IMG/VR virus record: IMGVR_UViG_3300045918_000450
Span: 1-28,640 of that record
DNA: 28,640 nt
Reading direction: 5' to 3' (one strand)
Source of the DNA: a virus
A model generated the notes under the pieces. That model saw nothing but the letters and a program-made list of their open reading frames with translations. It was not told the origin of the DNA and did no database searches. The translations under genes were made by a program, and so were the position numbers. Below, one piece after another: positions 10,691 through 22,961 of this stretch; the first letter of the stretch is position 1; every line of letters begins with the position of its first letter.

Positions 10691-10762
10691 ATAATTTTTG
10701 GTAAAAATTCACAAAGTTACTTAAACTATTGAGGTGTTTAGTCTTATTTAACTAAGCACCTT
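10691..10762 (+). promoter_or_regulatory. CRISPR leader of array B
   Basis: AT-rich stretch before the first repeat of array B. It holds the box CTTAAACTATTGAGGTGT at 10720-10737, which differs by two bases from the box in leaders A and C and stands 43 nt before the first repeat. Read on the other strand the box contains CTCAATAGTTTA, close to the IHF consensus WATCAANNNNTTR. Confidence 0.7.
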
Positions 10763-10850
10763 GTTTACTGCCGCATAGGCAGCTTAGAAAACGATAATCA
10801 ATCACCGCACCACCATAGATATATTCACTGCCGAACAGGCAGCTTAATGA
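10763..10850 (+). CRISPR. Mini CRISPR array B, type I-F-like, two repeats and one spacer
   Basis: Repeat 1 at 10763-10790 and repeat 2 at 10823-10850, both 28 nt, flank one 32-nt spacer at 10791-10822. Both repeats keep the I-F hairpin, CTGCC and GGCAG as a 5-base stem, with loops GCATA and GAACA. The second repeat is degenerate at its end (TTAATGA instead of TTAGAAA), as usual for a terminal repeat. The spacer matches the phage's own major capsid gene end, 10917-10948, at 25 of 32 positions. A palindrome (GACTGCCAGTCC / GGACTGGCAGTC) follows the last repeat at once. No cas genes are near. Confidence 0.88.
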
Positions 10851-10889: not shown

Positions 10890-12911
10890 TTAAGGAACAA
10901 TCCCAGCGTAAAAGCCTCTGAAGTCAATCACCGCACCGCCATAGATGTGACGGATTTTGTAAATAATTTGGTCATTGCTAAACAAACTACCCTGAGTAGG
11001 TAAATCTTGAACAAACAGCTCAGGCTCTTCCGTGCCGTTATAAAAACCCAACTCAATCAGCGGTATTTCCATCTTGTCGGCGGTGGCAAACCAGTTATTA
11101 GTATCAGACCAATAATCAACAACGTGGACTTTGGGTTTCCGTGACTGCACAAACGATTCGTCTAAATTGGTGTTACGAACAAACAAATCAAACGCGGTTT
11201 CTTCCAATTCCGCAGGAACATACAAATGACGCAATACCAAACCTAGTTTTTTAGCACTGTTCAATTCTACTTGTTTCTTAACGGCTAACCGCGCTGCTGA
11301 AAAAGCCGCTGCACTGAGTGCTGCCGTGCCTAAATTGCCATGGATAGCATTAAACAACGTCACCGCGTCATACAGAGTCGGATTAGTGGCAATAAAATCC
11401 ATCACGAACTCATACAAGGTGCGTTTTGCCGCCACTGCCAACCGTTGTGGGACTTTACGAATCGCACCCACATCATCATTAGCAATGGTTTCAAGACTGA
11501 TGGTTTCTTTACCACCGCGTTTAGTGATGGCGTAAGTCGCTTTTTCATCACTGGGCGACGTGAGCGCGTTATAAGCACCGTTTTCAGCCACAGCAGGCAG
11601 GTTGCCATAACCACCCATACGAGTGCGTTCTTGCGTACGAAAGTTAGAGATAGGAACAACATCGACTAAATCCTGAAAATCGTTATAATTTTCCAGCGCG
11701 GCATAATCACGCACCATTGCCCGTGTAATCGAGTTACCCAAAATATTGCCAAAGGTAGCCGCTGAAATCGCTTCACGGAAATGGGCATCACTCCCCAACG
11801 CTTCACGCAAACGCTGTTCATTACAGTTTTGAATCAGACCCGTCACCCCTGTATCGCCTGTGACTTCGACATAACATTCACGAAATGATTTAGCCCGTTT
11901 AGCAGGATTAAAAAAATCATCAAACATGGTGGTGATTTTGTCAGCGCGGTCTGAACCCATTTCAATAACCACGTCACCCAAGCCTTTAACATGACCTGAT
12001 TCTGTCAGTTTTGATAGCATAGTACGCTCGGTATCAATCGCTTCGCGCACCGCTTTCATCGTTAAACTATCGGTAGCTTTAAACTGTTTTAACAGTTTTT
12101 CAGTCACAGGGGCAGGTAGGTTTGCTGCTGCTAATATCGAACTATGCTCTCGCGCTTCCCAATAACGCGCTCTTTTTCCGTCGTCAAGCGTTTCGTTATA
12201 AGCTGCTAACACCGCGACTGGGTCAGTGGTATCCAGACCTTTAGGCATATCCCCGTCATTGCCCACCTGAATAAATGCCAACATTAATTGTAATAAGTCC
12301 ATAGTCCCACCTTGATTTTGTGATTGTAGTACGGGTTGATTAGCATCAACCGCCTCGATTATTAGAGTACAAACCCTAGGTTTGTCTGAATCCGAAGGCA
12401 TCACTGCCTCGATTAAATTGATAAGCTGCCCACCCGCCCCTGGTTCGATAATCAAATCGACCGAATGCACTTTGACAAACTTAGTGGCTTCGCGAAGTTT
12501 GCCGCGCATTTGCGTTAGCCCATCGGCATCAATCGAAAAGCCGAATAGCTCGGTCATCCCGTTGTTGTAGGCTTCTTTGAGTTTGGCAACCACTTCACCT
12601 GCCGAAGCCAATAAAGTCAGTGTGGCTTGGATTTCACCACTGTCTTGACCATTGCCTTCAATAAAGCGCGGGTCTGATAATTGACCAATGAGCTGACTAA
12701 ATGATTTACCACCGCCGTGAATATGTTCCGCATCGGATTTAGAAAATACCCGCACCTTGTCAAACAACGGTACGGCTTCACGCAACACCCGATCAGGGTA
12801 AAAGTTGTTATTACCCGACTGACCCGCGCGAATAACCCGAATCAGATACTTCAAGCCCGTTTTACCGTCGCTATCGGCAACGGCTTCAATAAATGAATTA
12901 GACGTTGGCAT
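10890..12911 (-). CDS. Fused prohead protease / major capsid protein
   Basis: A 673-residue protein from an ATG at 12911 (MPTSNSFIEAVADSDGK); the longer reading from 12968 overlaps the gene before it. Residues 1 to about 180 look like a phage prohead protease: FYPDRVLREAVPLFDKVRVF, EHIHGGGKSFSQLIGQLSDPRF, then a long helical segment. From about residue 320 the sequence has the Mu-like major head pattern: EQRLREALGSDAHFREAISAATFGNILGNSITRAMVRDY and the end IYGGAVIDFRGFYAGIVP. In Mu, protease and capsid are separate genes; here they are joined, as in several Mu-like siphoviruses, so one protein cleaves itself during head maturation. A palindrome at 12366-12388 is translated in frame in the linker. 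The last codons are the target matched by the array B spacer. Confidence 0.88.
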   Translation of the reverse strand: MPTSNSFIEAVADSDGKTGLKYLIRVIRAGQSGNNNFYPDRVLREAVPLFDKVRVFSKSDAEHIHGGGKSFSQLIGQLSDPRFIEGNGQDSGEIQATLTLLASAGEVVAKLKEAYNNGMTELFGFSIDADGLTQMRGKLREATKFVKVHSVDLIIEPGAGGQLINLIEAVMPSDSDKPRVCTLIIEAVDANQPVLQSQNQGGTMDLLQLMLAFIQVGNDGDMPKGLDTTDPVAVLAAYNETLDDGKRARYWEAREHSSILAAANLPAPVTEKLLKQFKATDSLTMKAVREAIDTERTMLSKLTESGHVKGLGDVVIEMGSDRADKITTMFDDFFNPAKRAKSFRECYVEVTGDTGVTGLIQNCNEQRLREALGSDAHFREAISAATFGNILGNSITRAMVRDYAALENYNDFQDLVDVVPISNFRTQERTRMGGYGNLPAVAENGAYNALTSPSDEKATYAITKRGGKETISLETIANDDVGAIRKVPQRLAVAAKRTLYEFVMDFIATNPTLYDAVTLFNAIHGNLGTAALSAAAFSAARLAVKKQVELNSAKKLGLVLRHLYVPAELEETAFDLFVRNTNLDESFVQSRKPKVHVVDYWSDTNNWFATADKMEIPLIELGFYNGTEEPELFVQDLPTQGSLFSNDQIIYKIRHIYGGAVIDFRGFYAGIVP
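10917..10948 (-). other. Imperfect self-match of array B spacer in the capsid gene
   Basis: 32 bases in the C-terminal codons of the capsid gene match spacer B1 at 25 positions. Mismatches at spacer positions 1, 3, 4, 5, 7, 22 and 31; five lie in the seed. The two bases before the match on the spacer-like strand are CC (10915-10916), the standard I-F PAM. Of the changes, all but one pair are synonymous; one changes Phe to Tyr. Confidence 0.85.
12366..12388. repeat. Short palindrome translated in frame, ACAAACCCTAGGTTTGT
   Basis: Perfect short palindrome ACAAACCTAGGTTTGT-like, centred on CCCTAGG, lying inside the fused protease/capsid gene in the linker region (residues KPRVCTLIIEAV). A close copy, with GGAGTC added at its left, lies in the intergenic region 13370-13394. 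Confidence 0.7.
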
Positions 12912-13086
12912 CTTTTGCCACCGTGATTTTTTGACCAGCAACCGTGACCACGACCACAGTATTGCCATAATCTTTAAACGCTAAACACTCAGTGAGGTCT
13001 TTGCGAGCCAATAACGCCGCATCCGCTAAGGTCAACACCGCGAGCGTGGGTTTGGTTTCTTCTTTGGGTTTGGGTGATTCTGCCAT
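12898..13086 (-). CDS. Small capsid-region protein, unknown function
   Basis: A 62-residue protein starting MAESPKPKEETKPTLAVLTLADAA, from the ATG at 13086. It overlaps the start of the protease/capsid gene by 14 bases, so it is coupled to it. The N-terminus is Lys/Pro/Glu-rich and flexible; the rest is a small domain, LARKDLTECLAFKDYGNTVVVVTVAGQKITV. Short proteins of this shape are often seen just before Mu-like capsid genes. The function is unknown, perhaps a head decoration or scaffold component. Confidence 0.65.
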   Translation of the reverse strand: MAESPKPKEETKPTLAVLTLADAALLARKDLTECLAFKDYGNTVVVVTVAGQKITVAKDANV

Positions 13087-17743: not shown

Positions 17744-17824
17744 AACTAAATACTTAACAATTAATAAAATCAATAGAAATGTCTTAAACTATTGATGCGT
17801 ATATTTTTCTTGATTTAGCGCGTT
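17744..17824 (+). promoter_or_regulatory. CRISPR leader of locus C
   Basis: AT-rich leader with the box CTTAAACTATTGATGCGT at 17783-17800, identical to leader A and standing 42 nt before the repeat. Upstream, AATAAAATCAATA (about 17763-17775) is shared with leader A. The other strand of the box reads GCATCAATAGTTTAAG, close to an IHF site. Confidence 0.7.
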
Positions 17825-17852
17825 GTTCACTGCCGCACAGGTAGCTTATAAA
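17825..17852 (+). CRISPR. CRISPR locus C: leader plus one repeat, no spacer
   Basis: A single 28-nt repeat with the I-F pattern; one stem base differs (GGTAG, giving a G-U pair). Its end reads CTTATAAA, the same as the last repeat of array A, and the same palindrome (GACCTG...CAGGTCT) follows directly. This looks like an array that lost its spacers by recombination between first and last repeat, or one that never gained any. Confidence 0.75.
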
Positions 17853-19531: not shown

Positions 19532-19559
19532 AACCTACTGCCGCATAGGCAGCTTTTAT
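19532..19559 (+). repeat. Solo CRISPR-like repeat D
   Basis: The core ACTGCCGCATAGGCAGCTT (19 bases) is identical to the first repeat of array B, with intact stem CTGCC/GGCAG; the flanks have decayed. No leader or second repeat is visible. A palindrome, GGAGTTAAAAACTCATGAGTTTTGA, follows immediately (19562), as in the other three loci. Confidence 0.65.
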
Positions 19560-21013: not shown

Positions 21014-21426
21014 TACGTTAATTCAAAAATATCCAGATTGCTGTAATACACTTCGCGTGATTTTTGCTTAATGCGCCGCACATTGCGTTCTGTCGTATTA
21101 AATTTGCGAGCCACAACGGCATTACTAAATCCTGCTTTAACATCCGCCATGATTAACAGCTTTTTTTGTTGGCTGATGATATTAGCACATAAATCAATCT
21201 CTAACGGTGTTCCGCCATAATAGGCACATAATTTTTCTAACGACCCCAGAGTAATCACCGCTGTCAGTTTATGGTTCGGCTTGGCTTTTTTAGGAATGTT
21301 TAAATGCGTACCCCCGTAATGATGTACCAATGCCATTGCCGCTTCAAAACCCACTACCTGTATCAGTTCAGCGGTGCGCTTTGGTAATAACGCATAAATA
21401 TCATCCGTAGCGGAATCAAAACTCAT
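21013..21426 (-). CDS. mor: Mor transcription activator family protein
   Basis: A 137-residue protein. The centre and C-terminus show the Mor/C family design: helical dimerisation part (TAELIQVVGFEAAMALVHHYGGTHLNIPKK), then a helix-turn-helix near the end, AGFSNAVVARKFNTTERNVRRIKQK. In Mu, Mor switches on the middle promoter; in Mu-like siphoviruses that lack C, this protein likely drives the late operon directly. It is followed on the minus strand by the strong terminator. Its start codon overlaps the gemA stop inside a palindrome (AAAACTCATGAGTTTTGACTCC), so the palindrome encodes both ends. Confidence 0.88.
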   Translation of the reverse strand: MSFDSATDDIYALLPKRTAELIQVVGFEAAMALVHHYGGTHLNIPKKAKPNHKLTAVITLGSLEKLCAYYGGTPLEIDLCANIISQQKKLLIMADVKAGFSNAVVARKFNTTERNVRRIKQKSREVYYSNLDIFELT

Positions 21427-21847
21427 GAGTTTTGACTCCTTCCACTGCCTTAACCAACGCAGTAATCACCCCGCGTAGTTCAAACGGTGTGCAAAATGTC
21501 AGGTTCGCTTTTTTGTACATCCGTTTTGCAATCGCATGAGCATAAGACCACGGCTTTTTCTGTACTGTCAGCAAGGCTTCAATCTTTTGTAACTGCCCAT
21601 TCTGTGCGGTGTTGTGCGGCTTGCCTTCGTGCAGCGTTTTACCTAACTGTGACTGCAAGTAAGCAATCACAGTTAGCCGTTGCGCTCTATTCAGTTTTGC
21701 CGAAGAATCCAGCCCAGTTTGATTAACTAACATGACTCGATAAGTTTCATCATCCAGCGTTAAATTCTTTTTCAACACATGAATCTTAGCGAGTTCTTTG
21801 TTTCTGTACGGATCGGGATTACCGTTAATCACTTTCTTGATTGCCAT
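21416..21847 (-). CDS. gemA: GemA-like regulatory protein (DUF1018, Mu gp16-like)
   Basis: A 143-residue protein with the DUF1018 pattern: RNKELAKIHVLKKNLTLDDETYRVMLVNQTGLDSSAKLNRAQRLTVIAYLQSQLG, then a second domain with ALLTVQKKPWSYAHAIAKRMYKK...FCTPFELRGVITAL. In Mu, gp16/GemA modulates host functions including DNA supercoiling control. It overlaps the Mor start, suggesting coupling. No ribosome site is visible before the ATG at 21847, which lies next to the leader of CRISPR array A. Its bases 21617-21648 match spacer A3 imperfectly. Confidence 0.88.
   Translation of the reverse strand: MAIKKVINGNPDPYRNKELAKIHVLKKNLTLDDETYRVMLVNQTGLDSSAKLNRAQRLTVIAYLQSQLGKTLHEGKPHNTAQNGQLQKIEALLTVQKKPWSYAHAIAKRMYKKANLTFCTPFELRGVITALVKAVEGVKTHEF
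21617..21648 (-). other. Imperfect self-match of array A spacer 3 in gemA
   Basis: Spacer A3 matches 28 of 32 bases on the coding strand, residues QLGKTLHEGKP. Mismatches at spacer positions 2, 3, 5 and 15; three in the seed. The two bases before the match read AC, not the CC expected for a I-F PAM. Spacer codons read Gln-Leu-Gly-Lys-Thr-Met, so only Leu to Met changes the protein. Confidence 0.9.
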
Positions 21848-21972
21848 TATATTTTTACATTAAAAAGTAGTAATAAAATCAATAAGTTGCTTAAGCGATT
21901 TTTTCATTGAAAAAAAACAGGAAAAATAGCTTAAACTATTGATGCGTTTAATCTTTTTCGATTAAGCGTCGC
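21848..21972 (+). promoter_or_regulatory. CRISPR leader of array A
   Basis: A 125-base AT-rich leader. It has the box CTTAAACTATTGATGCGT at 21930-21947, 43 nt before the first repeat and identical to leader C; reversed, it reads CATCAATAGTTTA, near the IHF consensus. A second site, AATCAATAAGTTG at 21877-21889, fits the IHF consensus WATCAANNNNTTR fully. Two IHF sites, near and far, are known for I-F leaders that support spacer uptake. A possible promoter is TTGAAA (21916) with TAAACT about 17-19 bases later. Confidence 0.7.
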
Positions 21973-22180
21973 GTTCACTGCCGCACAGGCAGCTTAGAAA
22001 TACTCGCGAATATTGCAGAGCCAATACGCTTGGTTCACTGCCGCACAGGCAGCTTAGAAAGCCAACGCTATCTTACAAGCCGCAATTACGGCGTTCACTG
22101 CCGCACAGGCAGCTTAGAAAAACTGGGTAAAACGATGCACGAAGGCAAGCCGGTTCACTGCCGCACAGGCAGCTTATAAA
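21973..22180 (+). CRISPR. Mini CRISPR array A, type I-F, four repeats and three spacers
   Basis: Repeats at 21973-22000, 22033-22060, 22093-22120 and 22153-22180, each 28 nt, with a strict 60-base period; spacers at 22001-22032, 22061-22092 and 22121-22152, each 32 nt. Repeats 1-3 are identical, start with GTTCACTGCCGC and end with GGCAGCTTAGAAA, which is the I-F class pattern; the last repeat ends CTTATAAA. The stem CTGCC/GGCAG with a five-base loop is the Cas6f (Csy4) substrate. 28/32 lengths are exactly those of I-F. It reads on the plus strand, opposite to the phage genes, between gemA and the DUF3164 gene. No cas gene in the window, so processing must rely on the host. Confidence 0.97.
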
Positions 22181-22212
22181 GACCTGCGAGGTTTTAAAAA
22201 CCTCGCAGGTCT
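22181..22212. repeat. Palindromic element, CCTGCGAGG type (copy 4), capping array A
   Basis: Begins at the first base after the last repeat of array A. Perfect arms GACCTGCGAGGTTTT / AAACCTCGCAGGTC, followed by TCTTTGTTAT on the plus strand, which could make it a weak terminator for the array transcript. Confidence 0.85.
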
Positions 22213-22262
22213 TTGTTATAACTTCGCTAAATCTAAACTAACTAATCCCCTAGCCGACTTTT

Positions 22263-22961
22263 TCATAGTGCTGCAATATCCAGTGATATTGCCTCCCATT
22301 CGCTGTCGATATTTTCACGTTTATACACCCGTACATAGCCTTTCGAGCCAATGGGCAATATGGCTTTAGAAATGGCTTGCATGGCTTGTTCCCACTTCGG
22401 ATGTACGATATTAATGCGGCGCAGTTTGAGAATTTCAGCCGTGTTGATGTTGCCATCATTTAGGCTAAAGGCGTTCATCAACAGCGTTTTAGTAATGTCA
22501 TCAACACCTGTGCTTTTCTCTTGAATCAACTCTTCAATGTGGCGTTTTGCCGCCATTAACTCTTCGGTAAAAGTAATGCGCTCAGCATAGGAGATAACAA
22601 TCTTTCTGGTTTGCGAGAAGTTGGTTAGCGTGACACCACTCTTTTTACCACCGATTTTAATGTCATAGTTAGCAAGGCTATAGGCTAAGAATGCCTCAAT
22701 TTTAGCAAAGGCATTGATTTTTACGTCGCGTAAATGGGCTTGTTCTGTTTCCCACTCCGCGACCATTTCATTGACCAGATCATCACGCGCTGCATCAACA
22801 GGGCTGATGATGCTAGCTGGATAAATCCGTCCTTTGCTGTCCACGCGGTGTGGTGTCTCAGGGTTAGCTTTTGCCTCTACACAGCGTGTAAACAGCGATT
22901 TAATATAATCGCTGCTGCGCTGCAAGGGGCTTTTTTCAGTATTTTCAGTTGGGTTTAACAT
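22263..22961 (-). CDS. DUF3164 protein
   Basis: A 232-residue protein: VDSKGRIYPASIISPVDAARDDLVNEMVAEWETEQAHLRD, then SLANYDIKIGGKKSGVTLTNFSQTRKIVISYAERITFTEELMAAKRHIEELIQE, and LKLRRINIVHPKWEQAMQAISKAILPIGSKGYVRVYKRE near the end. This is a close fit to the DUF3164 family, present in almost all Mu-like early regions between the replication genes and gp16. The function is not established; a nucleic-acid role is often assumed. It directly follows the DnaB-like gene with a 15-base gap and is the last gene before array A. Confidence 0.92.
   Translation of the reverse strand: MLNPTENTEKSPLQRSSDYIKSLFTRCVEAKANPETPHRVDSKGRIYPASIISPVDAARDDLVNEMVAEWETEQAHLRDVKINAFAKIEAFLAYSLANYDIKIGGKKSGVTLTNFSQTRKIVISYAERITFTEELMAAKRHIEELIQEKSTGVDDITKTLLMNAFSLNDGNINTAEILKLRRINIVHPKWEQAMQAISKAILPIGSKGYVRVYKRENIDSEWEAISLDIAAL

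Follow-up and report, generated by a model that had tools for sequence, protein, structure and literature searches.

What does a type I-F CRISPR array do inside a phage in which no cas genes are recognised? The window analysed here, a stretch of 28,640 nucleotides of viral DNA (IMG/VR record IMGVR_UViG_3300045918_000450, positions 1 to 28,640), exhibits a Mu-like gene set comprising a transposase, a MuB-like ATPase, GemA and Mor. Judging from sequence comparison with related phages and likely hosts, we consider it probable, at roughly 0.78, that this phage carries cas-less guide cassettes which use the I-F machinery of the host against related, competing phages.

Mini-arrays and repeat units in the window

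The main mini-array (21973..22180, + strand), recognised by repeat search, Rfam and RNA folding, comprises four I-F repeats of 28 nt and three spacers of 32 nt. The repeats start at 21973, 22033 and 22093 (exact copies) and at 22153 (one mismatch), with a strict period of 60 nt. Six repeat matches at up to 3 mismatches were found in the window, compared with 0 in 100 dinucleotide shuffles, and the Rfam family CRISPR-DR4 (RF01317) matched all four repeats of the main array as well as the units at 10763 and 17825. The repeat folds into a 5-bp stem, CTGCC/GGCAG, which is the I-F hairpin, and 28-nt repeats with this stem together with 32-nt spacers identify the array as type I-F. It is flanked upstream by gemA (21416..21847, − strand; PF06252, E 4e-18) and downstream by a DUF3164 gene (22263..22961, − strand; PF11363, E 7.8e-54). 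No cas genes, and hence no cognate cas operon in cis, were found among the ORFs of the window scanned with PADLOC, PHROGs and Pfam. Few spacers, no cas genes and a location inside a viral genome are the features of a virus-borne mini-array. The sequence-only reading had described this repeat, spacer and period arrangement, the I-F hairpin, the site between gemA and the DUF3164 gene and the absence of cas genes; the repeat positions, shuffles, Rfam and domain matches, folding and ORF scans agree with it on each of these points. The processed handle that it predicted has to be corrected from CTAAGAAA to CTTAGAAA, and the one array that it claimed is genuine but is accompanied by further cassettes (10763-10850, 17825-17852 and a remnant at 19536-19555).

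Directly 3' of the last repeat of the main array lies a perfect 18-bp inverted repeat (22178..22214, + strand), a possible transcription stop to which the terminator scan gave no terminator score. Palindromes like AAGACCTGCGAGGTTTTTAAAACCTCGCAGGTCTT occur in eight copies in the window (8089, 13330, 17852, 22180, 24779, 25926, 27047 and 27481), two of which are directly 3' of CRISPR units, and related phages have copies too.

The second mini-array (10763..10850, + strand) comprises two repeats, at 10763 and 10823, and one spacer, and is identical in the record L021. It adjoins a fused head protease / major capsid gene (10890..12968, − strand; PHROG 133, 4523 and 29592), which is the target gene in relatives. 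Its partly decayed leader (10698..10762, + strand) has kept TTGGTA-N18-TAAACT and has lost the IHF site. A third unit (17758..17852, + strand) consists of a leader and a solitary repeat, GTTCACTGCCGCACAGGTAGCTTATAAA, at 17825-17852, whose stem is maintained via a G-U pair according to RNA folding, and behind which the palindrome that follows the last repeat of the main array recurs. Finally, repeat search and folding revealed, between the terminase genes, a repeat remnant that lacks a leader (19536..19555, + strand). The units at 10.7, 17.8 and 22 kb have a common upstream element.

Could a host array simply have been joined to the phage during assembly? The window is a metagenomic virus record, and a second IMG/VR record, L028, ends inside the main array and holds only its leader and first repeat. 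Nevertheless, the same junctions recur in other records (L021, L023 and L028); among these independent IMG/VR records, L021 backs the 10.7-kb array and L028 the 17.8-kb unit. Moreover, several units have one leader type and spacers match the flanking phage genes, all of which makes an assembly chimera extremely improbable.

In L023, which represents the same phage, the 10.7-kb site lacks one spacer-repeat unit (L023:1140-1199), which leaves a solitary repeat there. Such a loss is as expected from repeat-repeat recombination, as far as the sequences indicate, and a mini-array can therefore turn into a solitary repeat. The contig names of L023 and of L071, the latter holding the best target of the spacer that is gone from the former, contain the same metagenome number.

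Solitary repeats raise the question of whether the repeats, rather than the spacers, are the functional part. In an RNA anti-CRISPR (Racr), expressed repeats would act as decoys for Cas6f and Cas7f and shield the phage from the I-F system of its host, the spacers being incidental. The solitary repeat and promoter-like leader of the 17.8-kb unit have the published Racr layout (PMC10651486), its stem is kept by the G-U pair, the 10.7-kb site is reduced to a solitary repeat in L023, and solitary I-F repeats occur in many phage records. The exact 32-nt spacers between intact repeats are at odds with this explanation, as are the spacer matches described below, and we regard it as unlikely for the cassettes as a whole. 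The co-resident solitary repeat could nonetheless inhibit the same I-F system and, when active together with the arrays, would counteract them.

Leaders and the likely host

The main array possesses a host-like I-F leader with an IHF site. This leader of about 115 nt (21858..21972, + strand) exhibits 85% identity over 113 nt to that of genome G232 and 81% to that of genome G001, two genomes of the likely host family whose own leaders are 83% identical; two further I-F leaders from this family are 57% and 63% identical to it. The IHF consensus AATCAATAAGTTG starts at −96 from repeat 1 in the main leader and in all four host leaders examined, whereas it was found at exactly −96 by chance in 0.1% of shuffles. 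In I-F systems, IHF folds the leader for spacer integration (PMC12259127). The main leader also includes a promoter-like TTGAAA-N19-TAAACT; a stricter sigma-70 promoter scan returned no standard site in the leader. In the 10.7-kb and 17.8-kb units, only the proximal part of the leader is kept, with a promoter-like box pair common to both and the IHF site gone. With regard to other phages, the related phage L011 carries a mini-array behind a host-type leader, including an IHF site with one mismatch, and the mini-arrays of L194 and L214 are without a host-type leader. A search for the leader pattern returned eight unrelated sequences in IMG/VR besides already known kin; across 237 genomes of the host family, it returned four host-type I-F leaders, and no prophage array was recognised.

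The hosts of this Mu-like phage are probably methane-oxidising bacteria, and we infer that the host of the window itself is a member of a Methylococcales family. The nearest capsid relative found in genomes, L034 (82%), is located in a Methylococcales MAG (G001), which has genes for Cas3f, Csy1, Csy2, Csy3 and Csy4 and I-F arrays, one with the exact repeat of the window. G232, from the same family, has genes for Cas1f, Cas3f, Csy1, Csy3 and Csy4 and a further ORF, outside the scan, at the place of Csy2; the array directly downstream comprises the exact repeat of the window and 162 different spacers. Cas6f is present in 97 of the 237 family genomes. The sequence-only reading had proposed to look in the host genome and relatives for an I-F cas operon with the same repeat; I-F cas genes and this repeat occur in both G232 and G001. 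Its two related claims, a proper leader and dependence on a host I-F system, are likewise sustained by the homology to the I-F locus leader of the likely host family and by the IHF site. The analysis revealed no lysogen in which the phage of the window sits beside an I-F locus; in the closest prophage, L034, the stretch read is without an array. One host I-F spacer, in array C6 of G001, matches a related phage (L030:2768) with 1 mismatch and a CC PAM.

G001 also has I-F repeats on the sense strand next to housekeeping genes (L176 and L177 loci): two repeats at C57:102843-102950, between rpoN-like and hpf-like genes, and one at C35:46127-46154, right after an infC-like gene and upstream of an rplT-like gene. 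These are possible Cas6f sites in housekeeping mRNAs.

Spacer targets and their distance from the arrays

Type I-F systems have a CC PAM and set seed positions, both of which were taken here from established knowledge of these systems. Two of the four spacers in the window have a recognisable target, and each target gene, gemA or the major capsid gene, adjoins its array. The spacer of the second array, A10 (10791..10822, + strand), contains in frame the sequence IYGGAVIDYR of the relatives' major capsid protein, with its target at the 3' end of the capsid gene. It matches L071 with 1 mismatch and a CC PAM, and L011, L034, L027 and L022 with 3-6 mismatches, a CC PAM and at most one seed mismatch. 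The homologous site in the phage's own capsid gene (10917..10948, + strand) has a CC PAM and seed mismatches at positions 1, 3, 4, 5 and 7 (7 mismatches in all). Spacer S3 of the main array (22121..22152, + strand) contains in frame LGKTMHEGKP of a relative's GemA, the identical peptide being found in L031, whose gemA exhibits a CC PAM, an intact seed and 5 mismatches outside the seed. The homologous site in the phage's own gemA (21617..21648, − strand) has the PAM AC instead of CC and seed mismatches at positions 2, 3 and 5 (4 in all). A10 and S3 thus combine a match to related viruses with an altered own copy, as is characteristic of virus-borne mini-arrays. For three spacers taken together, the own copies are mismatched at 10 of 21 seed positions versus 7 of 75 other positions (Fisher p 2.5e-4). 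The placeable spacers point at genes of related phages, which supports the virus-virus conflict suggested by the sequence-only reading.

No target was found for the remaining spacers, S1 (22001..22032, + strand) and S2 (22061..22092, + strand), in the fetched loci at up to 9 mismatches or in IMG/VR by PAM plus 16 nt; S1 also had none in the 237 genomes at 3 mismatches. Comparison of both with phage records gave only one 18-nt chance match.

Other phages exhibit the same pattern. Of the two spacers in L011, L011a is similar to the neck gene upstream of the array and its partner to the beginning of the gene downstream; L011a had no target with a CC PAM. An IMG/VR scan for the core of the repeat returned 57 stretches, which include two further phages with such mini-arrays. 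The mini-array spacer of L194 resembles the phage's own tail gene (4 mismatches, 462 bp away), and those of L214 resemble its own tape-measure gene (3 mismatches, 50 bp) and the gene after it (7 mismatches, 164 bp). Four phages (the window, L011, L194 and L214) together have seven spacers with a resemblance to a gene of their carrier; in every case the own copy is 50-462 bp from the array and has lost the PAM or has a disrupted seed. In relatives, PAM and seed are intact, L011a excepted. The combined p value for proximity is 5e-6, or 1.3e-3 using the weakest spacer per record, under a simple uniform null and with L194 searched over 12 of its 46.8 kb. The chance expectation of the counted own-gene matches is at most 2.5e-5 per record. 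L220 was excluded from this count, as its 28-nt units match each other within one array and represent a tandem duplication. Among the spacers of longer arrays listed in that scan, none matched its own record with fewer than 11 mismatches, and 111 loci with capsid relatives had no other I-F repeat and a single further spaced repeat pair, in L138.

The scan also returned tandem I-F repeats that are only 13-20 nt apart, compared with 32 nt in the arrays (L014, L191, L192, L199, L206, L220, L226 and L198/L202). These gaps are too short for a spacer, and the repeats are perhaps Racr variants or RNA-processing sites. Two one-spacer arrays from separate phage records, L010:11811-11898 and L016:48-135, exhibit a divergent first repeat (CCGTG.. 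and CCCCACTGCC.., respectively) and resemble each other in their AT-rich leaders.

The target data bear on three other explanations. As regards the Racr explanation, spacers that match relatives, with PAM and seed kept in the relatives and changed in self, count against it, as does the exact spacer length, because a decoy needs none of these features. A second explanation is self-regulation, in which crRNAs would bind and tune the flanking genes of their own phage. The spacers do adjoin the own genes that they resemble, but all seven own copies fail where binding starts, with the PAM lost or the seed disrupted. Known crRNA-like regulators have the opposite arrangement, with PAM and seed kept and the distal part lost. 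On account of this PAM and seed pattern, self-regulation was rejected as highly improbable.

The main alternative for the proximity is capture by recombination at the matching gene. A host array targeting the phage or its kin would have recombined with the phage and been passively kept, and the proximity and altered own sites would be scars of capture and escape that serve no purpose today. Recombination between phage and array through spacer-protospacer homology is attributed to Varble 2019 in PMC7099407, and such homology to a flanking gene would give proximity without selection for linkage. If seed, PAM and position 6 are set aside, a single mismatch separates S3, and likewise the L194 spacer, from the own gene, and the leader has decayed in two cassettes, as capture would allow. 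On the other hand, the arrays are intergenic, where capture would predict a crossover within the matching gene, A10 is closer to a relative (1 mismatch) than to the own gene, and the repeats, leader and IHF site are intact at 22 kb. Furthermore, no spacer of the window or of L011 was found among 244 host spacers from five loci, the best comparison having 15 mismatches. Taken together, these observations make passive capture improbable.

Proposed action and known systems

If the cassettes do serve as guides against related phages, they would be transcribed from the leader in a lysogen or in a co-infected cell. The transcript, with a repeat identical to that of host I-F loci, would be cut by the host Cas6f, and the crRNA would be loaded into the host Csy complex, with Cas2-3 then recruited to the rival phage. 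The guides would be aimed at the genes flanking the cassette in relatives, and the carrier would be spared by the altered PAM or seed of its own alleles. Partial self matches could also trigger primed adaptation against the carrier phage, a concern raised in PMC7099407.

Why should the targets be so close? A tentative answer, to which we give somewhat less than even odds, is that guide and immune allele need to stay linked in recombining phages, so that the cassette acts as a localised exclusion of the rival allele. Linkage is the simplest account of the proximity, since recombination that parts guide and immune allele would expose the carrier to its own guide. A more far-reaching and rather doubtful version is an RNA-guided selfish cassette. 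Here, the guide would cut the neighbouring gene of a co-infecting relative, and repair templated by the carrier would copy the cassette with its immune flank; this would amount to a natural CRISPR gene drive with host Cas proteins, in which an intact leader would let the host load new guides.

Several elements of this picture are already published, namely virus-borne mini-arrays against relatives, altered own sites and target proximity. The Saccharolobus portogloboviruses SPV1 and SPV2 (Medvedeva et al. 2019, PMC6858448) have intergenic arrays of 1-2 spacers with a host-like leader and without cas genes, and their spacers match close relatives near the array, with the own sites mutated. The proximity of the targets was noted there and called unexplained (PMC6858448). 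These are archaeal, non-lytic viruses with other CRISPR types, whereas the present case is a Mu-like bacteriophage with type I-F repeats and several cassettes in a single genome; its IHF site is placed as in the host leaders, and the changes in its own sites are clustered in the I-F seed. Mini-arrays are not confined to the archaeal viruses that the sequence-only reading named: as relayed in PMC6858448 and PMC7099407, Faure et al. 2019 had already described both mini-arrays and solitary repeat units from phages and prophages, with spacers in some of them against adjacent genes of relatives. According to the same two accounts, the leaders of those phage mini-arrays were absent or unlike those of the host, which was taken to preclude adaptation. 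L194 and L214 fit that description as relayed, and the window and L011 differ from it by their host-type leaders.

A host-type leader on a bacteriophage mini-array is therefore a departure from the published accounts, and as its IHF site is in place, spacer uptake becomes testable. As far as the openly available literature shows, the novelty lies in this leader with its IHF site, in the occurrence of several cassettes within a single transposable phage, and in the seed statistics. In addition, four phages with seven own-gene-like spacers beside the respective gene add bacteriophage cases to the so far unexplained closeness of mini-array targets.

Racr elements such as RacrIF1 (PMC10651486) share with the unit at 17825-17852 and with L023 a cas-less phage I-F repeat behind a promoter-like leader; they differ from the arrays of the window, which hold full spacers with interpretable targets. 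The free-standing homing endonucleases and localised marker exclusion of T-even phages (PMC2988022) offer a parallel to the proposed action: there, a cutting factor is encoded hundreds of bp from the site attacked in a relative, and the carrier allele is immune. All seven own-gene-like spacers lie within 0.5 kb, as marker exclusion would have it, and the likeness is one of sequence pattern; a guide RNA and a host-supplied nuclease would take the place of the endonuclease. This pattern agrees with a linked arrangement of guide and immune allele, and a homing or marker-exclusion model can now be put directly to the test.
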